In this document: positions 1-13,034 of the stretch, piece by piece | Numbering within the stretch: the stretch's first letter is position 1 | Layout of the letters: the number at the start of each line of letters is the position of its first letter | Assembly (NCBI RefSeq): GCF_000377705.1 | Contig: NZ_KB898625.1 | Location: 361,847 to 425,846, forward strand | From: Salsuginibacillus kocurii DSM 18087 | GTDB lineage: Bacteria > Bacillota > Bacilli > Bacillales > Marinococcaceae | Direction: 5' to 3' | Length of the DNA: 64,000 nt | Made by a program: the position numbers and the translations under genes | Notes under the pieces: generated by a model | Told to the model about the DNA's origin: nothing | What the model saw: the letters and a program-made list of their open reading frames with translations, nothing else | The model's database searches: none

Positions 1-2
1 AA

Positions 3-376
3 ACGAAAAAGCTGACGAGACAGCTAGTTACGATAGCAACAGCTGATTCATCCAATTGGGATATAAAGAGATTTGAAAAGGCACAGGAAGAAGCTGAAGC
101 AGTGGGCAATTGTCCACTTTATGGTGGGACATTAAAAGATATAAAAGCCAACCATCAACATTTATTGGATGTAGCGGCTTTAATGAGGGATGTAAATTTA
201 CGTTGCCACGATATGTTGCTGGTAAGAAGCTGACAGACAAACAAGTTGAAACGCTTTTAACTAAGGGGAAGACAGGAAAAATTAAAGGATTCAAAGGGAA
301 GAATGGTTCATTTGAAGCGCGTCTTTGCCATATAAGAGTGGTCATATTGAATTTGTTTAAGAAGAAGGAGAATTAA
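3..376 (+). pseudogene. topB: Decayed 3' end of a DNA topoisomerase III gene
   Basis: Fragments match the C-terminal zinc-binding tail of TopB-type topoisomerases. Frame 3 reads EEAEAVGNCPLYGGTLKDIK near 75-145. A second frame from about 150 reads FIGCSGFNEGCKFTLPRYVA and GKTGKIKGFKGKNG. A third frame shift near 320 would continue as PYKSGHIEFV. At least two frameshifts and the missing N-terminal catalytic domains make it non-functional, unless the gene starts left of the window and is read through, which the frameshifts argue against. TopB copies of this kind are common on conjugative elements, so this is probably debris from a mobile element at the left edge of the AT-rich island. Confidence 0.7.
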
Positions 377-488
377 ATAATCAATTGATAACTGCAATAT
401 TTGATGTATAAACATAAACCAGCACTAAAAAAATCCTTATTATTTTTTTATCGCCTCTCATAATCGTTTGATAGCTTATATAAAGCTG

Positions 489-632
489 ATTGTGATCAAC
501 CTTTTTTAAAAAACTAAACGATGATTTGTTTAGGAAGAATCCATTTTGATCAATCTTTATTCAAAATGGATTTCTTTTTATTTCTCTAAAGATGTTGTTT
601 ATAGTGTGATTTTGATCAAACTTTATTCAAAG
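489..632 (+). repeat. Three direct copies of a TGATCAANCTTTATTCAAA-type repeat
   Basis: Copies lie near 489-514 (TGTGATCAACCTTTTTTAAA), 542-569 (TTTTGATCAATCTTTATTC) and 608-632 (TTTTGATCAAACTTTATTC), about 55-65 bp apart. The middle copy forms the loop and one arm of a terminator hairpin. They may be protein-binding sites or decayed terminators; I cannot tell which. Confidence 0.5.
539..583 (+). terminator. Rho-independent terminator
   Basis: An 11-bp stem (ATCCATTTTGA with TCAAAATGGAT) and an 11-nt loop are followed by TTCTTTTTATTTC. It would end transcription coming from the topB remnant and insulate the cluster starting at 951. Confidence 0.7.
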
Positions 633-950
633 CTTCAGCTAAAATATATTCCACTAGAATAAGGCCACTTATCCATAAATTTGATAAAAGTTTAACGTAC
701 TCTACTCATAGTCCATAAAGGACTATATTTATACCATATGAGCTCACCTTATTACTAAAGAATATAAGTGTATACATAAAATATTTGTAAAATTAAAAAC
801 AAAGTGGATAAATTGATTTAATTTACAATATTTAACTCTAATATTCTTTATTCTAGTTTAATGTCAATTGCTATCACATATTATATTAATTTATTGTTAG
901 TTAATAAGTAATAATATTGAAATTATGGAATTTTTGAAAGGGGGTGTATA
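633..950. other. AT-rich intergenic region upstream of the peptide cluster
   Basis: No credible gene was seen. The stretch is very AT-rich and must hold the promoter for the peptide cluster, but no pair of -35/-10 boxes with 17-bp spacing stands out. A strong ribosome site (AAAGGGGGTG) ends at about 945. Confidence 0.5.
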
Positions 951-1037
951 ATGATGGAACTTAAAGTTAAAATCAAGCGCTTGGAAGAAAAACCAAATGT
1001 AGGATACTCAGCTGTTGCTAGCACTTTATGTGGTTAG
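951..1037 (+). CDS. Putative RiPP precursor peptide, 28 aa
   Basis: A short reading frame, ATG at 951 and TAG at 1035-1037, sits behind a very strong ribosome site (GAAAGGGGGTG, 6-7 nt spacing). The product begins MMEL, is lysine- and glutamate-rich for about 14 residues (leader-like) and ends GYSAVASTLCG, a small-residue, core-like tail with Cys27 and terminal Gly28. Right after it comes a hairpin and then an enzyme carrying a PqqD-like RiPP recognition domain, an exporter and an ornithine cyclodeaminase-family protein. That order (abundant small peptide, attenuating hairpin, modifying enzyme, exporter) is typical of ribosomally made, modified peptides. I do not recognise the family. A chance ORF or a regulatory leader peptide is the alternative. 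Confidence 0.6.
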   Translation: MMELKVKIKRLEEKPNVGYSAVASTLCG

Positions 1038-1060
1038 TATTAGAGCTAGAGTAGTCATCA

Positions 1061-1087
1061 GAGGAAGAGGGCATCTGCCCTCTTCTC
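1061..1087 (+). terminator. Attenuator-like hairpin after the precursor
   Basis: GAGGAAGAGGGCA pairs with TGCCCTCTTCTC through a 2-nt loop with one bulge, followed only by CCATTTTC. The weak tail suggests partial termination or 3'-end protection, giving more precursor than enzyme transcript, as in many RiPP operons (inference). Confidence 0.6.
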
Positions 1088-1154
1088 CCATTTTCGGAAA
1101 AAGCACCATCAGATATCTTTTAATTTGATTTCAATGAATGAAAGGAGAAGAGAA

Positions 1155-2174
1155 ATGAATACAATTGTAGAAAAAAATTTAGAGTTCCCTCGTTTACGAC
1201 ACTGCACCTTCTTGGAAGGACAGAAAGAAGACCCTATGTATATGGTAGTTGGTAAAGATTTTTTCGAATTAGAAAATACTGTTGGTGATAGAGATAAGTT
1301 TTTAGAAGTAAAGAGGTATTTTGATGGAAGGCACTCTATTGATCAAATTTCAAAAATTACTGGTGTTGCAAAAGACCATCTGACAGATATTATATCTGAG
1401 TTCAATGATTTGGGATTGATGAGAACAGAGAACGAAGAAGAGAAAAATTTTATAAAAAAAGATGATTTTATCAAGCAAATAGAAGATAGTTGTGAAATGT
1501 GGGCGAGTCAAATTGGCTATCATCAACTATTTGCTGGACTTGAAAGAAAAGAACTTAGAAAAGAAGTATTCCAAGGTTTTTTATTAGAAGTTTATCATTA
1601 CGTTAAAGGAGCGAGAAAGCATATTGCAGTTGCTTTAGCTAACTGTTCAACTGATAGAGAACAAGAGTTACTTACAGAATTTTTTGTTGATGAATACGAC
1701 CATGGTAAGCTATTGATAGAGGCTGTGGAAAAGACAGGAATTCCAAAAGATCAAACAATTAATGCACACCCTATAATTGGAACAATGTCCTTAATTAATA
1801 TGCTATCTGAGATTGGTAGGCAAAGCACTTTTGCATATATTGCTTGTACTTCTCTTTTCGAAGCAAGAGCAGAAGACTTTGAAGCTTCTAAAGCATCTTT
1901 CGAACGTCTGGCAGAATATAGTGGATTTGATAAAACAGTTGTAGATCCTGTAATAGAACATATGAGAGGAGACATTGAAGCAGATCATAATAGTTTGTTG
2001 GAAGAAGTGCTAGAGGGTATAGATTATATTAGCGCTGAAGAAGCTCATTTTACAGTCAACTGTTTACATGATTTAAAGCATTCATTTGACCAATTTCACG
2101 ACCAAATTATTGAATATTATTCAGATGTTTCTAATTATATACCAAGATTAAAAGTCGATTACTTCTCTCTATAA
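1155..2174 (+). CDS. RRE-containing heme-oxygenase-like (putative diiron) enzyme
   Basis: A 339-aa protein. I chose ATG 1155 because AAAGGAGAAG lies 5 nt upstream; an in-frame TTG at 1125 has no such site. Residues ~30-90 look like a PqqD-type winged helix (FFELEN, YFDGRHSIDQISKITG, ISEFNDLGLM), the fold used as a RiPP recognition element. Residues ~105-330 are all-helical and resemble the heme-oxygenase-like/TENA-PqqC superfamily. Candidate metal ligands form two ExxH motifs, E145-H148 (EVYH) and E275-H278 (EADH), with E180/H183 (DEYDHG) and E237 (FEARAE) between them, as in heme-oxygenase-like diiron oxidases. The fusion suggests oxidation of a peptide bound through its leader. The reaction is unknown. 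The AT-rich codon use differs from genes right of 4590. Confidence 0.7.
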   Translation: MNTIVEKNLEFPRLRHCTFLEGQKEDPMYMVVGKDFFELENTVGDRDKFLEVKRYFDGRHSIDQISKITGVAKDHLTDIISEFNDLGLMRTENEEEKNFIKKDDFIKQIEDSCEMWASQIGYHQLFAGLERKELRKEVFQGFLLEVYHYVKGARKHIAVALANCSTDREQELLTEFFVDEYDHGKLLIEAVEKTGIPKDQTINAHPIIGTMSLINMLSEIGRQSTFAYIACTSLFEARAEDFEASKASFERLAEYSGFDKTVVDPVIEHMRGDIEADHNSLLEEVLEGIDYISAEEAHFTVNCLHDLKHSFDQFHDQIIEYYSDVSNYIPRLKVDYFSL

Positions 2175-2179
2175 TAAAT

Positions 2180-2258
2180 GAGAGCTGCCTTAAAGATGCC
2201 ATTTGCTCCCCATAAAACAAACACAAACGTATTAATAAAAAAGCTAAGGGCAGCTCTC
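2180..2258 (+). promoter_or_regulatory. Inverted repeat spanning the intergenic gap before the MFS gene
   Basis: GAGAGCTGCCTTA (2180-2192) pairs with TAAGGGCAGCTCTC (2245-2258), ending 2 nt before the ATG at 2261. The right arm contains the AAGGG ribosome site, so a long stem would hide the start of the transporter gene. This may be a post-transcriptional control; only the pairing is seen. Confidence 0.5.
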
Positions 2259-2260
2259 CA

Positions 2261-3553
2261 ATGGTGGTTCTTATGTACAAACAATATAATAAAATTTTGA
2301 ACTCTTCAATCTTAAATAATAAACCTTTTTTAAAGCTTTGGGGAGGTCAAAGTGTAAGTTATATGGGAGATCAGATTTATTTGTTAGCCTTACCATTATT
2401 AGTTTATGAAATCACAGGATCTGGAAGCCAAATGGCGATTGTTTTTGGTTTTGAAATGATCCCTTTTTTATTATTTAGTTTAATTGGTGGGGTATTAACA
2501 GATAAATGGAACAAGAAAATAACACTGATTTTAGGGAATATTTTAGCCATTCTACCTCTTATGATTATTTATATGTTAAGCGCCCAAGGGGTAATTGAAG
2601 TATGGCATATATATATTATGAGTTTTATTTTATCTAGTATAGTTGCAATGACTTTACCTGCTTTTGAAGCATCTATTCCTTCTCTTGTAGATAAAAAAGA
2701 TTTAATAGGGGCTAACTCGTTAACTGAGCTGACCTTATCCCTTACTAGGATACTTGGACCAGCTATAGGTGGTGGATTGATAGCTTGGATAGGGGCAACA
2801 CAAGCAATTTTAATAAATGCTGCTACTTACCTAATTGCTTCATTGTTGATTTCCACTATTGTAATTTATCAAGTTACTAATATTTCATTCAATTCCAAAA
2901 TCAAAGACTCTCTATACGCATTTTGGGAAGGGCTATTGTATGTTCCGAAGCACAAAATCTTGAAGTGGGGTGTCTTTTTAAGTACTTCATCCAACATCAT
3001 ACTTGGAGCATACACTTCACTACTGATTTATTATATGACAAATGAATTAAATTTCACCCCTGATGTTATTGGTATAGTATTTACAGTTTCAAGCATTGCC
3101 TCTATTATTGCTGCTGCGATATTAGCAATGATTATAAAAAGCAATGAAAAAAGTGGATTAGTTATGTTGGTTAGCTTGGTTTGTCAAGGTATGGGTGTTC
3201 TTTTTGTAGGGCTTTCATTCAACTTAATAACTCTACTGATAGCTCAAGCTATTTATGTTTCTTCAGTAACTTTATACACAATCAATTGGAGATCTCTGAG
3301 ACAAACGGTAACACCTGATAATATGTTAGGAAGAGTTTCTGGGGTGTGTAGAGGAATAGCATTTGGTGGAGCAAGTTTAGGTGGATTTTTAGGCGGAATT
3401 TTCTTAAGTATGATTACTGTATCAACTCTACTTATGATAAGTGGTGTAATTGTGATTTCAATAGCTTTAATTTCAATAATAAAGGCAAATGATTTTAAAA
3501 ATATCAATATTAGCGAAGAAAATAAGGCACAATTGGAAAAGCAATCAGTTTAA
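2261..3553 (+). CDS. MFS transporter (EntS/DHA3-like), probable peptide or product exporter
   Basis: A 430-aa protein with about 12 hydrophobic segments. The N-terminal half carries FLKLWGGQSVSYMGDQIYLLALP, split here as FLKLWGGQSVSYMGD and IYLLALPLLVYE, and GGVLTDKWNKK (the MFS loop 2-3 motif), typical of the drug/siderophore exporter group. Start ATG 2261 lies behind AAGGG; ATG 2273 would also fit. It is third in the island operon, between the heme-oxygenase-like enzyme and the cyclodeaminase-family gene, so export of the modified peptide or self-immunity is likely. The substrate is inferred from context only. Confidence 0.8.
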   Translation: MVVLMYKQYNKILNSSILNNKPFLKLWGGQSVSYMGDQIYLLALPLLVYEITGSGSQMAIVFGFEMIPFLLFSLIGGVLTDKWNKKITLILGNILAILPLMIIYMLSAQGVIEVWHIYIMSFILSSIVAMTLPAFEASIPSLVDKKDLIGANSLTELTLSLTRILGPAIGGGLIAWIGATQAILINAATYLIASLLISTIVIYQVTNISFNSKIKDSLYAFWEGLLYVPKHKILKWGVFLSTSSNIILGAYTSLLIYYMTNELNFTPDVIGIVFTVSSIASIIAAAILAMIIKSNEKSGLVMLVSLVCQGMGVLFVGLSFNLITLLIAQAIYVSSVTLYTINWRSLRQTVTPDNMLGRVSGVCRGIAFGGASLGGFLGGIFLSMITVSTLLMISGVIVISIALISIIKANDFKNINISEENKAQLEKQSV

Positions 3554-3579
3554 GTAAAAGACTTTAATTAAAGAAGGGG

Positions 3580-4545
3580 ATGTCAGTAATCAGTTTACTT
3601 TTGTCCGATAAAGACATAAGAGATTTGATTTGTATAAATGAGATCATCCCTGACTTAGAAAAAGGGATGAAAAAATATCAATCTAAGGAAAATCAAAGTG
3701 AACGTGTGTTTGCGCCCCTTAGTAATATTTCAGGTGCAATGGTTCTTATGCCAGGTTTACTAGAAAATATACCCGCCTATACTGTTAAAGTTCATTCTAA
3801 ATTCTCAAACCAATCACCATCTATTAAAGGGGTAATACATCTACATGATTTGAATAACGGCAATTTACTTTCAATAATGGATTCAGCTTATATTACAGCT
3901 GTCAGAACCAGTATTGTAGGTGCAATAGGCACACATTTACTCTCACGTCATAATGCCCATAGAGTGGCTATTGTAGGCTGTGGTATTCAGGGTGAGCTAC
4001 AATTGAAATCATTATCTTTATTTCGAGATATATCGGTTGTTTATGTATTTGACCTCATATCAGAAAAAGCAGTGGCATTTGCAAATAAAGTGGGTAAAAA
4101 ATTAAACCTCACCATTATTCCTGTTTTGAGAATAGAAGAAGCCATTAAACAATCTGAAATCTTGATTTTAGCAACTTGGTCTAAAAATCCTCTTATATTC
4201 TCTAATATGTTATCTGAAGGTACTCATATAACCTCTATTGGTGCCGATCAACCCGATAAATGTGAAATAAGTGTTGAACTTATCAAGAAAGCTAAATTTA
4301 TTTGCGATGATAAGGAACTTACTACACAAATGGGTGCCATTGCAAGCGCCAATCTTAGTTCAAAAAATATTGATGGTGAAATAGGAGATATATTAAATGG
4401 TCACATTGAAGGAAGAACATTTATGAGGCAAAATACTATCCTTAGTTTAGTCGGTCTAGCTTTTCAAGATTTAGCTGTTGCTTGGAGAGTATATAATAAA
4501 GCAATAAGTGAAAATGTAGGTGAAGAATTTTTTTTACATAAATAA
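3580..4545 (+). CDS. Ornithine cyclodeaminase / mu-crystallin family protein
   Basis: A 321-aa protein of the OCD/SbnB/alanine-dehydrogenase family. Seen: the TAVRTSIVGAIGTHLLS core, the Rossmann dinucleotide motif VAIVGCGIQGELQL (near residue 125) and ITSIGADQPDKCEISVELI, all family hallmarks. Members deaminate ornithine to proline or make/break N-C bonds with NAD(P)H (SbnB in diaminopropionate synthesis). Here it may supply an unusual amino acid or reduce an imine on the peptide. The GAAGGGG ribosome site directly abuts the ATG, so the start is not certain. It is the last gene of the AT-rich island. Confidence 0.8.
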   Translation: MSVISLLLSDKDIRDLICINEIIPDLEKGMKKYQSKENQSERVFAPLSNISGAMVLMPGLLENIPAYTVKVHSKFSNQSPSIKGVIHLHDLNNGNLLSIMDSAYITAVRTSIVGAIGTHLLSRHNAHRVAIVGCGIQGELQLKSLSLFRDISVVYVFDLISEKAVAFANKVGKKLNLTIIPVLRIEEAIKQSEILILATWSKNPLIFSNMLSEGTHITSIGADQPDKCEISVELIKKAKFICDDKELTTQMGAIASANLSSKNIDGEIGDILNGHIEGRTFMRQNTILSLVGLAFQDLAVAWRVYNKAISENVGEEFFLHK

Positions 4546-4589
4546 AAGTGGGTCGTATTTATTTTAAACAGGATGATAGAGGTGTTTAA

Positions 4590-5486
4590 TTATGGTTCTC
4601 CTGCTGAAACAATCGCTGCTTCAGGCGCGACCTCTTCCAAAAATTCTGGAATCGTCGACGTATCTGAGCCGTGATGGCCTAAGTGGAGCACCTCGCTTGA
4701 TAAATCAAGGTCTTCTTCCACCATCTCCTGCTCCGTTTCTGCTTCGGCATCTCCTGTCAGTAATACATCGACTTCGCCATAAGAGAAGGTTGCCGAGAGC
4801 GAACCTTCATGCAAATCCCCGCTCAGCTCATCCGGGTTTACCACTTCAATTTCCATTCCTCCCACGTCATACGTGTCTCCGCGGCGTGGTTCTTCGTACG
4901 CTACATCTTCGGTTTCAATCGCCTCGATCACCCGCTCGAACGTATCGGTAGTCGTCGTGTCACCAGACATCCAGACTTCTTCCACCTCAAATTCTTCTAT
5001 AATCATATCCATTTGGCCAATGTGGTCGGCATGGGGGTGGCTGCCCGCTAAGATATCGATTTCTTCAATATCCTGTTCATGCAAATAATCGACGACATCC
5101 GCCCGGCTCCAATCGCCGGCGTCAAATAACACTTTGTACGTTTCTTCTTCCTCCTCTACTTCAAATAGAGTAGCATCTGCCTGGCCTGCGTCAATGAAAT
5201 GTACCGCGAGTTCGTCCAGCTCTTCGCCGGCCGCCTGCTGTTCCTCCTCTTCAATCTGCTCCTTTTCTTCCTCCTCAGCCTGCACCTCTTCTTCATCCGT
5301 TTCTGTTTCCGTAGTCGCTGGCTCTTCTTCGTTTTCTTCTTCCGGCTCTTTTTGTCCGGCCTGTTCATCTGCTTCTTCTTCGCTTTCAGGCTCTGCTTCT
5401 GGCTCCGCATCTTCTTCTGTCTCACAGCCTGCAAGCATTAAGGTTAGAAAAGCAGCACCTGGCACCAATAGATGTGTGATCTTCAA
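4590..5486 (-). CDS. ComEC-like metallo-beta-lactamase-fold lipoprotein, 3' truncated
   Basis: Translation from TTG 5486 (AGGGGGAGA 6 nt upstream) gives a short signal peptide ending LMLAGC, a lipobox, then an extremely acidic linker of about 75 residues and an MBL domain. Seen: HFIDAGQADATL, the metal-binding GSHPHADHIG, LLTGDAEAE and LHLGHHGSDTS, as in ComEC C-terminal and related exported hydrolases. The product stops at AIVSAGEP, whereas relatives continue with N-x-YGHPHP and about 25 more residues. The gene is therefore cut at its 3' end exactly where the AT-rich island begins. Activity is uncertain because the missing histidine segment often helps form the active site. Confidence 0.75.
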   Translation of the reverse strand: MKITHLLVPGAAFLTLMLAGCETEEDAEPEAEPESEEEADEQAGQKEPEEENEEEPATTETETDEEEVQAEEEEKEQIEEEEQQAAGEELDELAVHFIDAGQADATLFEVEEEEETYKVLFDAGDWSRADVVDYLHEQDIEEIDILAGSHPHADHIGQMDMIIEEFEVEEVWMSGDTTTTDTFERVIEAIETEDVAYEEPRRGDTYDVGGMEIEVVNPDELSGDLHEGSLSATFSYGEVDVLLTGDAEAETEQEMVEEDLDLSSEVLHLGHHGSDTSTIPEFLEEVAPEAAIVSAGEP

Positions 5487-5720: not shown

Positions 5721-6581
5721 ATGGGCGAGACAGTAATTTTAGCTAAGATCCGGGCACAGCTCACTTCCTTTTCACCAGCAGAACGAAAAGTGGCAGAGTA
5801 TATTTTAGCGCATGGAGAATTTGTGCCGACGATGACCACCAAGCAGCTGGCCGAACAAGCCAATGCGAGTGAAGCGAGTATTGTCCGGTTCTGTAAGCGT
5901 ATTGGAATGGAAAGTTTTCGAATGGTAAAGGTTGCGCTGGCTCAGGAATATTCACAAGGAGAAGCCACCATTAATAGCACCTCCTTAATTGAATCGAACG
6001 ATACACCGCATAGTTTGTTTCAAAAAGTTACTTCCTTGAATCGTATGTCCTTAGAAATGGCACCCAAAACGATTAGTTATGCTGAATTTGAAAACGCTGT
6101 TACAGCGCTGCAGGCGGCGGGCATGATCAGCATTTTTGGCGTAGGTGGTTCATACACGGCGGCTGTTGACGCTCAGTACAAATTAATGAGATTAGGGTGC
6201 CATGCAACGACCTCTTCAGATTATCACTATATGGTACCACTCGTTACGATGATGAAGCCTGAGGATGTATTAATTTGTGTGAGTATGACCGGACGCACCC
6301 ATGAAATTGTGGAGCTAGCCCGCTTCGCAAAAGAACGGAAGGTGACAGTCCTGGCCATCACTCGCCTGGATAATTCGCCGCTATATAAATTAGCAGACAT
6401 TTGCCTCTGCATTCCAGACATTGAGCTTGAACACCGGATAGGCAGCATTGCTTCTAGAACGAGCCAGTTAAATATTATCGATGCTCTCTATGTGGCTCTT
6501 TTTCATTCCATCGGCGCTGAACTAGTGGACCGTTTTGACGAATCCCGGGCTCGTGCTGATGAACATAGACAAGAGGAATAA
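5721..6581 (+). CDS. murR: RpiR-family transcriptional regulator of MurNAc catabolism
   Basis: A 286-aa protein with an N-terminal HTH_6 domain (FSPAERKVAEYILAHG, then SEASIVRFCKRIGMESF) and a C-terminal SIS sugar-phosphate-binding domain (IFGVGGSYTAAVDAQYKLMRLG; VLICVSMTGRTHEIVE). It heads the murR-murQ-murP-mupG group, so it should sense MurNAc-6-phosphate. ATG 5721 follows GGGAGG at 12 nt, slightly long. A terminator at 6580-6610 separates it from murQ, which has its own promoter and a palindrome that may be its operator. Confidence 0.85.
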   Translation: MGETVILAKIRAQLTSFSPAERKVAEYILAHGEFVPTMTTKQLAEQANASEASIVRFCKRIGMESFRMVKVALAQEYSQGEATINSTSLIESNDTPHSLFQKVTSLNRMSLEMAPKTISYAEFENAVTALQAAGMISIFGVGGSYTAAVDAQYKLMRLGCHATTSSDYHYMVPLVTMMKPEDVLICVSMTGRTHEIVELARFAKERKVTVLAITRLDNSPLYKLADICLCIPDIELEHRIGSIASRTSQLNIIDALYVALFHSIGAELVDRFDESRARADEHRQEE

Positions 6582-6610
6582 CCGTTTTGCGAGGCAAAGC
6601 GGTTTTTCTT
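6580..6610 (+). terminator. Terminator after murR
   Basis: AACCGTTTTG and CAAAGCGGTT pair (one G-T) around GAGG, followed by TTTCTT. Confidence 0.7.
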
Positions 6611-6751
6611 GTATCCTAAACCCTCTCTGTTCTAGCTCTCTTCTTATGCTCCCCTCTTTCTTTCCGTCGCATTTCATCCATGCTAGCTTTAAAATTCTTT
6701 GTTAGTCTTCCTGCCAATATGCAAGATTTTCACCGGCTAGTACGATAGATT

Positions 6752-6814
6752 TGAAATTAAATTTCATATAATAATAAATTTATATTGATTTTAACTTTCA
6801 CTATGGCATACAAT
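6752..6814 (+). promoter_or_regulatory. murQ promoter with upstream palindrome (candidate MurR site)
   Basis: A perfect 15-nt palindrome TGAAATTAAATTTCA lies at 6752-6766. Downstream, TTGATT (6785-6790) and TACAAT (6809-6814) with 18-bp spacing form a SigA-type promoter. The palindrome's position upstream of -35 is compatible with either repression or activation. Confidence 0.55.
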
Positions 6815-6862
6815 AGATATGAAAGCGGATTCAAAAATCGACATGAAGACGGAGGAATGTCT

Positions 6863-7747
6863 ATGATACATAAATTAGGAACCGAACGACGAAACGAACG
6901 CACGATGGACTTAGACGAAATGTCGATTCTAGGCATTTTAGAAACGATGAACAGCGAAGACAAAGAGGTGCCGGAAAAGATTAAAGACGTGCTGCCAGCC
7001 ATTGAAGCATTAGTCAAAGAAACGATCGCTGCCTTGAAAAAAAATGGCCGTATTTTATATGTCGGAGCGGGCACAAGTGGACGGTTAGGTGTTCTAGACG
7101 CTGTTGAGTGCCCTCCCACCTTTGGCACCGCGCCCGAAACAGTGCAAGGCTTTATTGCTGGTGGAGATCAGGCATTTACAAAAGCGAAAGAAGGAGCCGA
7201 AGATTCTCAAGAAGCAGGACGTGAGGATTTAGAGAAGGTACAACTTTCCGAAAATGATGTCGTCATTGGACTGGCAGCTAGCGGTCGCACTCCCTATGTT
7301 ATCGGCGCGTTAGCCTACGCCCGTGAAATAGGAGCAGTCACGGGAAGTATTGCCTGCAATTTGGACGCAGCGATTAGCAAGTGGGCTGACCACCCGATTG
7401 AAATAAATACAGGTCCGGAAGTGTTAACTGGCTCTACTCGTTTGAAAGCAGGAACAGCACAAAAGTTAGTGTTGAATATGATTTCCAGTGCTTCCATGAT
7501 TGGGTATGGGAAAGTGTATCAAAATTTAATGGTTGATGTGAAAGCAACAAATGAAAAGCTGGTCGCTCGCTCTCATCGTATTATCCAAGAAGCAACGGGA
7601 GTCGATGAAGCTACCGCTGTCAGCACGTTTGAAGCAGCCAACCACCATGTAAAAACTGCGATTGTAATGATATTGGCAGACGTCAGCGCCGAAGAAGCAG
7701 TGAAACGATTGGATCAAGCAGAAGGGTTTGTCCGTCAATCGATTTAA
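6863..7747 (+). CDS. murQ: N-acetylmuramic acid 6-phosphate etherase
   Basis: A 294-aa SIS-domain enzyme that cleaves the lactyl ether of MurNAc-6-P to GlcNAc-6-P and D-lactate. Seen: TERRNERTMDLDEM at the N terminus, GAGTSGRLGVLDAVECPPTFG split as GAGTSGRLGVLDA / ECPPTFG, VIGLAASGRTPYVIGAL and STRLKAGTAQKLVLNM, the family signature. ATG 6863 is preferred because ACGGAGGA ends 7 nt upstream; ATG 6857 is too close. It feeds GlcNAc-6-P to the adjacent nag genes. Confidence 0.95.
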   Translation: MIHKLGTERRNERTMDLDEMSILGILETMNSEDKEVPEKIKDVLPAIEALVKETIAALKKNGRILYVGAGTSGRLGVLDAVECPPTFGTAPETVQGFIAGGDQAFTKAKEGAEDSQEAGREDLEKVQLSENDVVIGLAASGRTPYVIGALAYAREIGAVTGSIACNLDAAISKWADHPIEINTGPEVLTGSTRLKAGTAQKLVLNMISSASMIGYGKVYQNLMVDVKATNEKLVARSHRIIQEATGVDEATAVSTFEAANHHVKTAIVMILADVSAEEAVKRLDQAEGFVRQSI

Positions 7748-7783
7748 TAATTAAATTTTTATTGCGGTAAAGGGGGAAAAGCA

Positions 7784-9145
7784 ATGAAAAAAGAAGAAGC
7801 AATTACAGAGGGGATTTTGTCGCACGTTGGCGGCGCAGACAATATTAGCTCCCTCACAAACTGTATGACCCGGGTGCGGCTCAATGTTGTCGATTATGAA
7901 AAAGTGAATATTGACGAGCTACGGGCCCTGGATGGTGTCATGGGAGTCGTAGAAGATGAAACGCTGCAAATCGTAGTCGGTCCTGGTACTGCCACAAGCG
8001 TAGCTCAATTGCTTTCAGAGAAGACGGGTTTAAAGGCTGGCGAAGCAAAAAATGATGATCACACCGCAGAGGACGTGCGAGCTGGAATCAAACAAAAACA
8101 AAACCGCCCGATTCAAAACTTTTTAAAGCGGATTGGCAGCATCTTTATTCCATTGATTCCTGCTCTAGTTGCCTCGGGTCTGATCAACGGAGGTGCAAGC
8201 TTTGCGGAAAACGCAGGCGTAGACCCGGAAACAACCTGGCTTCAGATTTTACTTGTCATTGGTAGTGGAATCTTTACGTTTTTAGGCATCCTCGTCGGTT
8301 GGAATACAGCTAAAGAGTTCGGCGGAACACCCGCGTTAGGGGCTATTGCTGGTATTTTAATTATTAATCCTGCGCTTGAAGACATTACCTTATTCGGTGA
8401 GCAGCTCGTAGCGGGACAAGGAGGCATATTTGCTGTACTCTTAGCTGCCTGGGTAATGGCAGTGGTAGAACGAACCGTTCGCAAAGGGATTCCTGCAGCT
8501 CTTGATATTATAATTACTCCATTTATTACAGTACTTGTGGTCGGTGTGGCAACGATTGTTGTATTGCAACCGATTGGTGGATTTGTCGCAGATATTGTCA
8601 TGATCGGTATTAACGGTGTGCTTGATATTGGCGGTGCTGTAGCCGGGGCCGTTCTAGCAGGTACTTTCTTGCCGCTTGTTATGGTGGGTATGCATCACGG
8701 TTTGACACCCATTCACCTTGAATTTATCGATTCCCAAGGAGCCACTCCACTGCTTGCCATCTTAGCAATGGCCGGTGCAGGGCAAGTCGGGGCTGCCATT
8801 GCCGTATTTGTTAAAACAAAAAATGAGAAGCTTAAAACGAACGTTAAAGGTGCTCTTCCCGTTGGTTTCTTAGGGATTGGCGAACCGCTTCTTTACGGGG
8901 TTACTCTTCCGCTCGGTCGACCATTCTTAACGGCGTGTTTGGGAGCATCAGTAGGCGGTGCTTTCCAAGCTCTCATGGGAACCGCAGCCCTCGGTATTGG
9001 TGTATCTGGCCTTTCACTTATTCCATTAATTGATGATGGTCAGTATCTCTCGTATTTCTTAGGACTTGTGATCTCTTACTTCTTTGGCTTCCTGTTCACC
9101 TACTTGTTTGGCTACAAAGAAGAAATGGCTGAAAATATTAAATAA
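7784..9145 (+). CDS. murP: PTS MurNAc-specific EIIBC component
   Basis: A 453-aa permease. Residues 1-85 are an EIIB domain with the phosphocysteine C27 (LTNCMTRVRL). Residues ~105-450 are the membrane EIIC domain (MHHGLTPIHLEF; GIGEPLLYGVTLPLGRPF). No EIIA domain is present, as is usual for MurP, which borrows a glucose-type EIIA. It imports and phosphorylates MurNAc at the membrane. It lies 36 bp after murQ behind AAAGGGGG. Confidence 0.9.
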   Translation: MKKEEAITEGILSHVGGADNISSLTNCMTRVRLNVVDYEKVNIDELRALDGVMGVVEDETLQIVVGPGTATSVAQLLSEKTGLKAGEAKNDDHTAEDVRAGIKQKQNRPIQNFLKRIGSIFIPLIPALVASGLINGGASFAENAGVDPETTWLQILLVIGSGIFTFLGILVGWNTAKEFGGTPALGAIAGILIINPALEDITLFGEQLVAGQGGIFAVLLAAWVMAVVERTVRKGIPAALDIIITPFITVLVVGVATIVVLQPIGGFVADIVMIGINGVLDIGGAVAGAVLAGTFLPLVMVGMHHGLTPIHLEFIDSQGATPLLAILAMAGAGQVGAAIAVFVKTKNEKLKTNVKGALPVGFLGIGEPLLYGVTLPLGRPFLTACLGASVGGAFQALMGTAALGIGVSGLSLIPLIDDGQYLSYFLGLVISYFFGFLFTYLFGYKEEMAENIK

Positions 9146-9150
9146 CAATC

Positions 9151-9191
9151 AGAGAAAGGTCCGGACTTTCTTAAAAGCCCGGGCTTTCTCC
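9151..9191 (+). other. Intergenic hairpin between murP and mupG
   Basis: GAGAAAG...CCGG and CCGG...CTTTCTC form an interrupted stem without a U-run, so it is more likely an mRNA processing or stability element than a terminator. Confidence 0.4.
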
Positions 9192-9211
9192 GATCGTAGG
9201 AGGTTAGCTTC

Positions 9212-10285
9212 ATGAGAGGCATTTCCATTTACTTAAATCAACAATCTAGCGAAGAACAATGGGCATACTTATCGCAGATGAAAGCGTATGGATTCAGTGC
9301 TATCCTTACCTCGCTGCATCTCCCTGAAGATGATCCTACTTTTTATGTGGAAGCTCTGAAAACGCTCGGTTCGCAAGCAAAGCAGCTGGACATGGAACTG
9401 ATTGCAGATGTTTCGCCTTCATCCTTAGAACACTTGGGGTTAACGTTTGAGAGTGCTCCCAACTTGCTTGATTGGGGGGTGGACGGAATTCGGGCCGACT
9501 ATGGAATCGAGCCGGAGAGTATTGCCTCACTCTCCCATAAGATGCGAATCGCCCTGAATGCGAGTACAATTACTGATTCCTTTTTACAAACATTAATAGA
9601 ACTAGGCTTAGAAACTGCCCATACAGAAGCCTGGCATAATTTCTATCCGCGTCCGGAGACAGGATTGGCTAAAGCAGAGTTGCAAGAGCAGAATGCGAAG
9701 CTGCAAGCTGCAGGGATTCGCACGCTTGCTTTCGTAGCAGGGGATGGCAAACGGCGGGGGCCTTTGCACCAAGGACTGCCAACGTTAGAGAAGCATCGCA
9801 ATGTCGCTCCATTTTCGGCGGCGCTTGAATTATGGCGAGATGCCGGGGTTGATAAGGTAATGATTGGCGACCCTGACCTCTCTGACGGAAGTGCAGAAGC
9901 GTTTCAAGCCTTTGATGAAGGTGTGGTAACGTTGGACGCAGTGTGGGAAAAACCAGGCGAAGCCGTCATGGCTATTGCTCGCCAACCACATCGACAGCGC
10001 TTAGATCCCGCTCGCGATGTCGTACGCTCTGAAACGTCGCGCTTTTACGCGAGTCAAGCCAACGTGCATATCTCTGCAGACCGAGAGGCGTCAAAAAGCA
10101 GGCTACCCGGTGCGATAACAATAGACAATGAACTATATGGACGCTATCAAGGTGAACTGCAAGTTGCCAAGGTCCACCTGCCTGCTGATGAAAAAGTGAA
10201 TGTGGTCGGCTATATTGCCGAGGAAGACCTACCCTTAATTCATATGCTGCGACCAGGAGAACACTTTCAGTTTCGTGATATGTAA
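9212..10285 (+). CDS. mupG: DUF871 family protein, probable 6-phospho-N-acetylmuramidase
   Basis: A 357-aa protein matching the MupG/DUF871 family: an N-terminal TIM-barrel (MRGISIYLNQ; ILTSLHLPEDD; WGVDGIRADYG; TAHTEAWHNFYPRPETGL) and a C-terminal cyclophilin-like part (ISADREASKSRLPGAITIDN). MupG splits MurNAc-6-P-GlcNAc disaccharide in the cytoplasm, giving MurNAc-6-P for MurQ. It ends the mur operon, with GTAGGAGG before the ATG. Confidence 0.88.
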   Translation: MRGISIYLNQQSSEEQWAYLSQMKAYGFSAILTSLHLPEDDPTFYVEALKTLGSQAKQLDMELIADVSPSSLEHLGLTFESAPNLLDWGVDGIRADYGIEPESIASLSHKMRIALNASTITDSFLQTLIELGLETAHTEAWHNFYPRPETGLAKAELQEQNAKLQAAGIRTLAFVAGDGKRRGPLHQGLPTLEKHRNVAPFSAALELWRDAGVDKVMIGDPDLSDGSAEAFQAFDEGVVTLDAVWEKPGEAVMAIARQPHRQRLDPARDVVRSETSRFYASQANVHISADREASKSRLPGAITIDNELYGRYQGELQVAKVHLPADEKVNVVGYIAEEDLPLIHMLRPGEHFQFRDM

Positions 10286-10298
10286 GAAGAACGACGTT

Positions 10299-10326
10299 TA
10301 AACGGCAGCTCCAGGCTGCCGTTTAT
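10299..10326. terminator. Terminator between convergent mupG and nagR
   Basis: AAACGGCAGC and GCTGCCGTTT form a 10-bp stem with a 5-nt loop. It lies between convergent genes and could serve both, although the U-run is short. Confidence 0.6.
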
Positions 10327-10366
10327 TCGGTTTAGAGCACGTTTGTCAGTGCAAAAAGGTTATACA

Positions 10367-11092
10367 TTATCGTGGTAAGGTTATTTGGAACGTATAATAA
10401 TCAGCCCGGTAAAAGGATTCGGTGAATTCTACGGGGTCGCCGGAGGTTAGATAAGTCGTTCGCAGCATTCGTAAAATAGGAGCTCCATCTTCTAAACCCA
10501 AATAGGAGATATGGTCCTTACTAGCCAAAGTGGCTTCAATTTTTTGTTCTGCGTGGGAAATAACTAGGCGTGCTTCTTTTTCAAGGAACGTATACAAAGA
10601 CTTTTCCCGAACATCTTCTTCTGTTAAATAAGGAACAAACTGTTCCTTCACATGAGTTCGTTCATACGCCACAGGCTGTTCATTACCTGTCCGAATACGG
10701 CGAATATGATAGACCTCCTCGCCTTCTTCCATATTCAATCTAACAGCCGTTGCGCCATCTGCATTTTCTTTCTGAAACGAAAGTAATTGGCTCCCTGGTA
10801 CTTGGCCGCGAGCTTTCATTTCTTCTGTAAAGCTAGTTAAAGACTGAAGTTTTTGTTCGATTTTTTTCTCCGCTACATACGTACCTTTTCCTTGTTCCCG
10901 AATGAGCACCCCTTCGTTTACCAGTTCGGTTACAGCTTGTCTCACCGTCATGCGGCTAATATTGTTCTCTTCTGCAACCACTCGTTCAGATGGAAGTGAG
11001 TCACCTTCCTGCCATGCTTTCGTTTCAATTTTATGCTTCATATATTCTTTCAGTTGGTAGTAAATCGGGACCGGTGACTCTTTGTTAATCAT
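10367..11092 (-). CDS. nagR: GntR/HutC-family regulator of GlcNAc use
   Basis: A 241-aa protein with an N-terminal winged helix (IYYQLKEYMKHKIETKAW; SERVVAEENNISRMTVRQAV) and a UTRA effector domain (TEEMKARGQVPGSQLLSF; FTESFYRADYYTF). NagR proteins bind GlcN-6-P or GlcNAc-6-P and repress nag genes. Its start overlaps the nagB stop by ATGA, so it is the last gene of nagA-nagB-nagR. A dre-type site overlaps the operon promoter upstream of nagA. Confidence 0.9.
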   Translation of the reverse strand: MINKESPVPIYYQLKEYMKHKIETKAWQEGDSLPSERVVAEENNISRMTVRQAVTELVNEGVLIREQGKGTYVAEKKIEQKLQSLTSFTEEMKARGQVPGSQLLSFQKENADGATAVRLNMEEGEEVYHIRRIRTGNEQPVAYERTHVKEQFVPYLTEEDVREKSLYTFLEKEARLVISHAEQKIEATLASKDHISYLGLEDGAPILRMLRTTYLTSGDPVEFTESFYRADYYTFQITLPR

Positions 11093-11844
11093 CGTACAAC
11101 CACCTTATTTAAATCTTCGGGTATAAACTGACACGCTTTTTCATCAGCGATTACGGTCACATGGGGATGCCGGTGTAGAATAGATGCCGGAAAGTCCTCC
11201 GTAACATCTCCGTACAAAAGCTGATACAGAGGTTTTGCTTTTTCTTCTCCCGCTACTAGCAGGAAAATGGCTTTTGCTTCCATGATCGTCTGCAGCCCCA
11301 TCGTTATCGCTTGTTCCGGCACCTCAGCAAGCGATGCAAAATACCTTGCATTTGCTTCTCTTGTCGATTTATCCAAATTCACAATGTGTGTCCGGCTCGA
11401 AAAAGGTGTCCCTGGTTCATTAAAACCGATATGGCCATTATTCCCTAGCCCTAAAAGCTGTAAATCGATAGGACCTTCCTGCTCAATAAGAGCTTCATAT
11501 CGTTCGCATTCAGCTTCTAAATCAATTGCTTTTCCATCAGGAAGATGGCGTTGCTGAACGGGGATGTTTGTATATTGAAATAAATGTTTCTTCATATAAA
11601 AGTGATAACTGTTAACATCCTCAGCGTGTAAACCAACATACTCATCGAGGTTAAACGTATGAACATGGGTCAACGAAATATCCTCTGCTTCTTTCATACG
11701 AACCAGTTTATCATAAAATCCAACCGGCGTCCCTCCTGTCGCTAATCCTAGCTTAACCGGATTATAACTCTGGATGGCACACATAAATTCTGCTGCTGCT
11801 TCAATGCTCATGGCATCGGGGTGTTTAACTTTTACCAGTTTCAT
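11089..11844 (-). CDS. nagB: Glucosamine-6-phosphate deaminase
   Basis: A 251-aa enzyme turning GlcN-6-P into fructose-6-P and ammonia. Seen: GLATGGTPVGFYDKLV, TFNLDEYVGLHAEDVNSYHF with the catalytic Asp, and GLGNNGHIGFNEPGTPF, the family signature with the active-site His. Its length matches Bacillus NagB. It lies 14 bp after nagA and overlaps nagR by 4 nt. Confidence 0.95.
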   Translation of the reverse strand: MKLVKVKHPDAMSIEAAAEFMCAIQSYNPVKLGLATGGTPVGFYDKLVRMKEAEDISLTHVHTFNLDEYVGLHAEDVNSYHFYMKKHLFQYTNIPVQQRHLPDGKAIDLEAECERYEALIEQEGPIDLQLLGLGNNGHIGFNEPGTPFSSRTHIVNLDKSTREANARYFASLAEVPEQAITMGLQTIMEAKAIFLLVAGEEKAKPLYQLLYGDVTEDFPASILHRHPHVTVIADEKACQFIPEDLNKVVVR

Positions 11845-11858
11845 CCATCCATCCTCCT

Positions 11859-13034
11859 TCAGCTCTCAAATACTGCAGCACCTTGAATAAAGGTCTTTTC
11901 CACGTCAAGCTGTTCAGTTAATAAAACCAAGTCAGCATCTTTTCCTGCGGCAATGTGCCCTTTTTTATGCTCAATTCCCAGCTTGCATGCTTGATTGTAA
12001 GAAGTCATCTGCACCGCTTCATTCAGCGAACAATTCGTATAAGCAAGTACATTTTTGAAACCTTCAATCATGGGTAAACTACTGCCCGCAAGCGTGCCAT
12101 CTTCTAAATATGGCGAGCCATGTTTCATGAATACCTTTTGCCCCCCAAGTTCATGGGGACCAGCTCCCATCCGTTTAGCTCGAATCGAATCAGTAATGAT
12201 CATCATTCGTTCTTTCCCTTTAGCCTGAAATGTAAGGTTCACCATATCTGGATGAACATGCACCCCATCTGCAATGATCTCTACAGTTAGGTTATCCTCT
12301 GCTAAAGCAGCTGCCGCTACCCCTGGAGCGCGGTGGTGCAGCCCGCTCATACCGTTATATAAATGCGTGACATGACTCACTCCTTCTTCCATTGCCAGAA
12401 GTGTTTCTTGATACGTCGCATCAGAATGACCGATGGAAGCAATAATGTTATTCTGCGCTAAATAGCTGGTGAGAAGATCGTCCCTTTCTCGTTCCGGTGC
12501 AAGAGTCACCAGTTTAATTTCACCATCAGCTGCCTGCTGAAATTCTTCAAACTGTGAAATCGACGGAAGTTGAATATGCTCTTCCGGCTGTGCCCCTTTT
12601 TTATTTGGATGAATAAACGGTCCTTCTAAATGAATGCCTAAAATCTGAGCCTCCTTTATCCCTTGCTGTTTATAATGGGCAGCTGCATATGACAATGCTT
12701 GCTTTGTTAGCGAAGGACTTTCAGTTAAGGTGGTCGGTAAAAAGCTTGTCGTTCCTTCCTCCGGCAAGGCCGCGCACAACTTTTTTAGTTGCTCTGGACT
12801 AGCATCCATCACATCGGCCCCAACGGCTCCGTGAATGTGCAAGTCAATCATTCCAGGGATTAAATAAGAGTTTTCCGGTGCCTTCATATGACGACAATTG
12901 TAATTTTCCTTGGCGAGTGACGTTTGCGTAATTTCTTGTATAATTCCCTCTTTTATATAAATAGAGGCATTTTCTATTGTTTCCTCTGGATTTATGATGG
13001 TCGTTCCTTCAATCACTATGCTGTTTTTTTCCAT
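11859..13034 (-). CDS. nagA: N-acetylglucosamine-6-phosphate deacetylase
   Basis: A 391-aa amidohydrolase that removes acetate from GlcNAc-6-P. Seen: PGMIDLHIHGAVGADVMD, ILGIHLEGPFIHPNKKGAQ, SIGHSDATYQ, HLYNGMSGLHHRAPG and ITDSIRAKRMGAG, covering metal and substrate residues. ATG 13034 follows CTGGAGG. It is first in the nag operon, behind a promoter overlapped by a NagR-type site. Confidence 0.95.
   Translation of the reverse strand: MEKNSIVIEGTTIINPEETIENASIYIKEGIIQEITQTSLAKENYNCRHMKAPENSYLIPGMIDLHIHGAVGADVMDASPEQLKKLCAALPEEGTTSFLPTTLTESPSLTKQALSYAAAHYKQQGIKEAQILGIHLEGPFIHPNKKGAQPEEHIQLPSISQFEEFQQAADGEIKLVTLAPERERDDLLTSYLAQNNIIASIGHSDATYQETLLAMEEGVSHVTHLYNGMSGLHHRAPGVAAAALAEDNLTVEIIADGVHVHPDMVNLTFQAKGKERMMIITDSIRAKRMGAGPHELGGQKVFMKHGSPYLEDGTLAGSSLPMIEGFKNVLAYTNCSLNEAVQMTSYNQACKLGIEHKKGHIAAGKDADLVLLTEQLDVEKTFIQGAAVFES

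Follow-up and report, generated by a model that had tools for sequence, protein, structure and literature searches.

Heme-oxygenase-like diiron oxidases (HDOs) are a fast-growing superfamily of oxidases. The fluopsin C enzymes FlcE and FlcD act on free small molecules and, to our knowledge, involve neither a precursor peptide nor a RiPP (ribosomally synthesised and post-translationally modified peptide) recognition element (RRE), and the metal-free PqqC closes rings on a free intermediate. In the available text of a review of HDOs, the one ribosomal-peptide case cited is thiovarsolin (PMC13108848). According to the accessible part of the thiovarsolin study, these peptides come from repeat-containing precursors and need a YcaO/TfuA pair, and the role proposed for the HDO VarO is desaturation of a residue derived from Arg (Santos-Aberturas 2019, PMC6511847). 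For the pearlins 3-thiaglutamate and 3-thiahomoleucine, the portion of the source at hand describes a tRNA-dependent ligase that adds Cys, a multinuclear non-heme iron-dependent oxidase (MNIO, DUF692) that oxidises it, and a cluster protease that releases the product (PMC9303977). Here we describe a locus of Salsuginibacillus kocurii DSM 18087 in which the gene for an enzyme joining an RRE-like domain to an HDO domain follows that of a 28-residue peptide with Cys-Gly at its end. The locus lies in a stretch of 64,000 nucleotides, which we call the window (positions 361847–425846 of contig NZ_KB898625.1, from a 3.8-Mb genome), and it had been singled out in an original prediction as a possible unnamed RiPP class.

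The peptide and the RRE–HDO enzyme together are a real and widespread pair, very probably a RiPP family and one unnamed as far as we searched: among the matches listed in the open-access literature, no paper describes RRE–HDO enzymes with Cys-Gly precursors. A conserved, gene-encoded precursor stands beside the predicted modifying enzyme, an arrangement expected of a RiPP system.

A conserved probable precursor ending in Cys-Gly

Four genes on the same strand (the window coordinates below are on the forward strand) make up the locus at 951–4545, namely the peptide open reading frame (ORF), the enzyme, a major facilitator superfamily (MFS) transporter and an ornithine cyclodeaminase/mu-crystallin (OCD) protein. 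The precursor ORF (951..1037), recognised from its relatives and from upstream-ORF statistics, runs from an ATG start to a TAG stop and encodes the peptide MMELKVKIKRLEEKPNVGYSAVASTLCG, which ends in STLCG and matches nothing in Pfam or NCBIfam. As predicted, this tiny gene is preceded by a strong ribosome-binding site, AAAGGGGGTG (937..946). Residues 5–11 (KVKIKRL, 963..983) form a leader segment that is predicted to be a β-strand, and the peptide closes with Cys27-Gly28 (1029..1034), the end that its relatives conserve.

To count this conservation we used 28 loci with this enzyme family, from six phyla as inferred from record titles. Duplicates (e.g. L027–L048 and L086) were excluded before counting, as were L025, whose HDO covers only ∼96 residues, and L073, which shares a 9,897-base contig with L021. 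Of the 28 loci, 22 have a CG-ending ORF that lies on the sense strand 1–300 nt ahead of the enzyme match, compared with 0.14 expected from the background, in which 994,760 nt hold 17 such ORFs. Two further loci (L016, L017) encode a CG peptide divergently, and variant ends are seen in L004 (CA), L014 (CM) and L021 (SG), so 26 of the 27 precursor-bearing loci have Cys in the penultimate position (24 CG, one CA, one CM). L018 is the sole locus among the 28 in which no precursor was found. A listing of upstream short ORFs holding Cys or Tyr returned comparable peptides from most loci, among them MALKVKVKKLDKKPAFATAAVNTTMCG (L002), MMKITVKKVEAPAGGSKIASVTTCG (L005), MSITIKPVEKPAMSKIAGAVLCG (L009) and MKIVKIKKEKIVAAVTVSICG (L024), as well as a longer precursor in L007 whose terminal part is LKISVKRLQGADFKGSPSTITMCG. 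Since such short precursor genes are easily missed, the family may exceed its present size.

Conservation extends several residues upstream of the terminal pair, as in SKVxGAVLCG and SVVLMCG. The second of these ends an annotated 67-aa protein of Rhizobium etli p42f, and these last seven residues are invariant across nine Rhizobium-type precursors (the query and eight sequences 67–88% identical to it). At the DNA level, the differences between close Streptomyces relatives tend to be synonymous, with five synonymous changes and one changed codon (L009/L010) but also two and two (L009/L011), and more distant pairs are mixed, for example six and eight (L009/L072); the DNA differences therefore lend weak support. 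Some loci encode precursors of about 65–110 residues with an additional N-terminal region. CG-ending precursors with long N-terminal regions occur in L026 (7515–7799) and L022 (7523–7855), and the one from Sphingomonas looks HU-like by eye, which would make for an unusual leader. Two expectations attached to the original prediction, that homologous loci keep a short ORF and that the peptide is conserved between them, were both borne out. We regard the 28-residue peptide as very probably the substrate of the enzyme, and Cys27/Gly28 as the probable site of modification.

Between the precursor and the enzyme gene, sequence and folding place a hairpin with a 10-pair stem and a 4-nt loop (1063..1086). 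It had been read as a partial terminator, of which the stem stands, but it has no T-run and was not listed in a terminator scan, and a terminator after the precursor was accordingly rejected. Taken alone, the hairpin is unremarkable, with its stem length reached in 10 of 200 shuffles and a fold z of −0.88 for the gap. Among relatives, at most 2 of 200 mononucleotide shuffles reached the stem length in 13 of 20 precursor–enzyme gaps, whereas none of 20 control stretches of equal length inside the enzyme gene passed the same test (20 of the 27 precursor loci were used; L011, L016, L017, L021, L026, L063 and L072 were left out). The gap hairpins differ in sequence and occupy the same place, which would fit a device maintaining an excess of precursor mRNA. 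A hairpin at a conserved position behind a short ORF that has a strong ribosome site could also mark this ORF as a regulatory leader, one that attenuates by cysteine or glycine supply and is no substrate at all. We consider this extremely improbable, since residues are conserved along the peptide and its exact C-terminus is kept, since versions of about 65–110 residues occur in other loci, and since the enzyme has an RRE-like domain and a subtype that the peptide end tracks, as described below.

The enzyme itself has 130 homologues at E ≤ 0.001, and among the matches listed 119 relatives are 40–68% identical over the aligned part. A scan of genome contigs gave 25 enzyme loci, assigned by inference to Bacillota, Actinomycetota, Bacteroidota, Chloroflexota, Pseudomonadota and a cyanobacterium. 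Its distribution is patchy: the enzyme is present in 2 of 61 genomes searched, those of the window and of Alteribacillus persepolensis from the same family, and strong matches (E below 1e-100) were obtained for 2 of 392 genomes in the genus of Streptomyces natalensis and for 5 of 297 in the family of Saccharothrix algeriensis. A single-sequence query of viral contigs gave one pattern match and no relative, the three window proteins compared with PADLOC had no match at E ≤ 0.001, and Rfam returned nothing at gathering thresholds for window positions 380–4700.

Predicted fold and metal site of the enzyme

The enzyme gene (1155..2174, 339 aa) has the ribosome site AAAGGAGAAGAG, although translation may begin further upstream, at an in-frame TTG (1125). 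An AlphaFold model built from 27 sequences, with a mean predicted local distance difference test (pLDDT) score of 90, shows three strands (18–39) and three helices (46–85) followed by a helical bundle. RREs are laid out as three strands followed by three helices, and residues ∼18–85 are predicted to have this layout, which delimits an RRE-like domain at residues ∼12–90 (1188..1424). The claim that the enzyme starts like PqqD therefore holds for the predicted fold but not for the sequence: among the 18 Pfam families listed for 27 aligned homologues (E ≤ 0.01) there is no PqqD match, and generic winged-helix models match in its place. The RRE assignment is fold-based for this reason. When the leader was modelled together with this domain, leader residues 5–11 formed a strand and the first ten residues had a mean pLDDT of 89. 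The third strand of the domain was also longer than in the enzyme-only model (9 versus 5 residues), in a model where the partner strand of the leader was not visible. The six best re-aligned chains for this model of leader and domain were two of ThcOx, one of the PbtF RRE with a leader fragment and three of LynD/TruD-type heterocyclases.

The helical bundle (residues ∼97–330, 1443..2144) matches HDO-fold proteins including CADD, PqqC, FlcD, UndA and TenA in a structure search, and its profile matches are CADD, 3dde and mangotoxin MboA, so that an HDO fold is predicted for the enzyme. E180 and H183 (1692..1703), E236 (1860..1862) and H269, D273 and H278 (1959..1988) align with the CADD metal site, giving the full E, H, E, H, D, H set. 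All six are invariant across the 27 aligned enzyme sequences. The original prediction had proposed ExxH...ExxH ligands; E145-x2-H148 and E180-x2-H183 are both present, but of these only the second belongs to the CADD-aligned set. Its broader expectation, that structure prediction would return an RRE-like domain together with a diiron site, was upheld by a model in which the HDO fold holds the six-ligand set. We thus describe the window enzyme as a predicted diiron oxidase, for which oxidation is the likely chemistry. Among 24 aligned CG-type enzymes the six ligands are intact in 23. The exception, L018, has lost four of them (E180Q, H183R, H269R, H278R), and as it has neither metal site nor precursor it offers a natural control. 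The degenerate HDO of L018 (8001–8978) lies beside a SufS-type gene and looks like a decayed or repurposed copy.

The fold relatives include the cofactor-biosynthesis enzymes PqqC, CADD and TenA, and some loci show only the peptide and the enzyme, as might be expected if the peptide became an intracellular redox or metal-binding cofactor like pyrroloquinoline quinone, with the MFS and OCD genes as later additions. This appears highly unlikely to us, because no dehydrogenase family was seen recurring beside the pair in the genes scanned and because presence in 2 of 61 genomes suggests an accessory trait.

Some distant homologues are encoded as two adjacent HDO genes, and these twin-HDO loci are, judged from their sequences, a sister precursor type to the Cys-Gly type. 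All six twin loci tested (L061, L062, L087, L088, L091, L092) have a short ORF ending in V/I-H-L 76–116 nt upstream; L061, L062 and L076 (the same as L088) are where this ending was discovered, and L087, L091 and L092 were tested afterwards, so three of the six are independent of the discovery. The peptides are MTITKKKRTIVAVAVHL (on a Rhodococcus plasmid), MTIRSKKKVIVAVAVHL and ...KVTALSAVHL, with further ends of ...PVLIPVHL (Robbsia), ...GTPTLIAIHL (Burkholderia) and ...GRPTLIAIHL (Sphingomonas). No V/I-H-L ORF lies within 300 nt upstream of the enzyme in any of the 28 CG-type loci. All 24 aligned CG-type enzymes carry an HDxKHxxD motif (residues 305–312, 2067..2090) that is specific to the Cys-Gly type among aligned rows. 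Not one of 11 twin-type enzymes has the complete motif, and ligand D273 is Asn in all 11 readable rows of that type (row L088b was left out of the twin-type alignment counts). Because the motif tracks the CG type while twin-type peptides end in HL, enzyme and peptide end change together, and two ends tied to two architectures amount to a natural specificity experiment. The system is in this respect wider than first proposed, with the RiPP interpretation itself supported.

Both peptide types occur together in the Burkholderia twin locus. Twin-type neighbours are MFS and GNAT genes in Rhodococcus, and aminotransferase, EamA and GNAT genes in Robbsia. Fused double-HDO proteins (open frames of ∼610–630 aa with two HDO matches each) occur in L012 (9551–11383), where one adjoins a CG precursor and a single HDO, and in L095. 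By eye, no CG or HL peptide was found ahead of the open frame at the distant HDO loci L093, L094 and L095 (0 of 3), a weak test as their start codons are not known. Other weak matches (L064–L071, L075, L077–L083) stand outside the HL count, and only some of them were covered for ORFs ending in Cys.

Neighbouring genes and the proposed product

The MFS (2261..3553; MFS_1, E 4.5e-35) and OCD (3580..4545; OCD_Mu_crystall, E 1.7e-58) genes named in the original prediction were confirmed. In 16 of the 28 loci an MFS gene follows at a distance of up to about 3.7 kb; an OCD gene lies downstream in six (the window, L009, L010, L011, L021, L089), and a SufS-type cysteine desulfurase in six (L015, L016, L018, L019, L023, L090). 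With so few loci carrying it, OCD was rejected as a core gene; the core is thus the peptide and the RRE–HDO enzyme. As far as we searched the class does remain unnamed, as the original prediction had it, but the four-gene set described there is one variant. In L018 the SufS-type gene may lie outside the pathway, since it is kept although the HDO is degenerate. A methyltransferase gene neighbours the pair in L024.

In the reading that we prefer, the enzyme from the adjacent gene would bind the charged leader strand through its RRE-like domain, and its predicted diiron centre would oxidise the C-terminal Cys27 (with Gly28), the peptide serving mainly as a handle. A small product derived from Cys would then be released by a housekeeping peptidase, trimmed by the OCD protein or, at other loci, by a SufS-type pyridoxal phosphate enzyme, for example through reduction of a cyclic ketimine, and exported by the MFS protein. 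Oxidation of the terminal Cys or Gly and an action of the OCD protein on an imine had already been put forward in the original prediction, and both may apply. As a whole we find this account somewhat probable. The release and export of a small molecule is a tentative part of it, a little short of an even prospect, with which the cysteine- and imine-handling partners would fit.

If instead the mature product were the modified peptide, whole or as its C-terminal half, the MFS protein would export a peptide, and the OCD protein would act on that peptide or supply a building block. The loci have no recurring peptidase, some of them (such as L003, L007 and L060) hold no recurring tailoring gene that needs a free amino-acid product, and conservation of the core reaches several residues ahead of CG, all of which would suit such a product. 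The MFS proteins, however, resemble small-molecule pumps (TIGR00900, EntS; below curated cut-offs) and not peptide ABC exporters, and the OCD and SufS families handle amino-acid-sized substrates, so we consider a peptide product rather unlikely.

Solved relatives of the OCD protein include pyrroline-2-carboxylate reductase, alanine dehydrogenase and thiomorpholine-carboxylate dehydrogenase. On a more speculative reading, which we consider unlikely and which belongs to the broader proposal given below, the Cys thiol and an oxidised Gly α-carbon could close a thiomorpholinone-like ring in the window, which the mu-crystallin-type protein would reduce before MFS export. This route would be a ribosomal counterpart of isopenicillin-N-type Cys chemistry.

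Other observations concern the surroundings of the pair. In Streptomyces loci a 461-aa protein (F7) follows OCD (L009, 11354–12736, with relatives in L010, L011 and L089), for which no Pfam, NCBIfam or PDB sequence match was found. In Rhizobium etli p42f (L060, 3494–15032) the pair lies between a HamB-like helicase and Mza defence genes (MzaC, MzaE), an arrangement reminiscent of a defence island. Just upstream of the cluster, in the window (1–420) and in L096 (6096–8080), an apparently broken topoisomerase-like gene spreads across several overlapping frames, with Toprim_Crpt matched by Pfam at 110–376 of the window and the rest called by eye; it is a possible mobile-element border. Window positions 5721–13034 hold what appears to be an ordinary amino-sugar cluster, with an RpiR-type regulator carrying a SIS domain by Pfam and MurQ-, phosphotransferase system-, NagB- and NagA-like proteins called by eye.

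Comparison with described systems

An HDO family with its own likely peptide-recognition domain and substrates of roughly 20 to 110 residues makes peptide HDO chemistry testable by two-gene co-expression. A broader proposal, which we consider unlikely, is a RiPP superfamily in which the RRE-fused HDO would define the class, would read the last two residues of a disposable handle (Cys-Gly for single, His-Leu for twin enzymes), and would need no tRNA-dependent ligase to make small metabolites of sulfur- or imidazole-derived type.

Like the window enzyme, PqqC and PqqD pair an HDO-like fold with a PqqD-like recognition domain, and a natural PqqCD fusion (5vrd) is among the structure matches. In that fusion the order of the domains is opposite to that of the window enzyme, and none of the four window genes matched the PqqA or PqqE families. 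Nitrilobacillins were dropped as a candidate, as the part of the source consulted names asparagine-synthetase-like and MNIO enzymes and no HDO (PMC13060819).

The pearlins, from the text available, share with our proposal an iron oxidase helped by an RRE, a C-terminal Cys on a small peptide, and the release of a small product (PMC9303977). Here, in contrast, Cys-Gly is gene-encoded, oxidation would fall to an HDO, and neither a ligase nor a peptidase is present in the window cluster; Lant_dehydr_N of the PEARL ligases had no match in the window's genome, in a search that gave no match in any control genome either. The thiovarsolin pathway, as far as its published description was accessible, resembles the window in having an HDO, VarO, in a ribosomal-peptide pathway, an MFS gene in the cluster, and no peptidase there (PMC6511847). 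YcaO had no match in the window's genome, in a search whose control matched 5 of 14 genomes and that did not cover TfuA. Unlike in the thiovarsolins, the HDO here is the sole recurring modifying enzyme, it carries its own RRE-like domain, and the precursor it accompanies ends in Cys-Gly.

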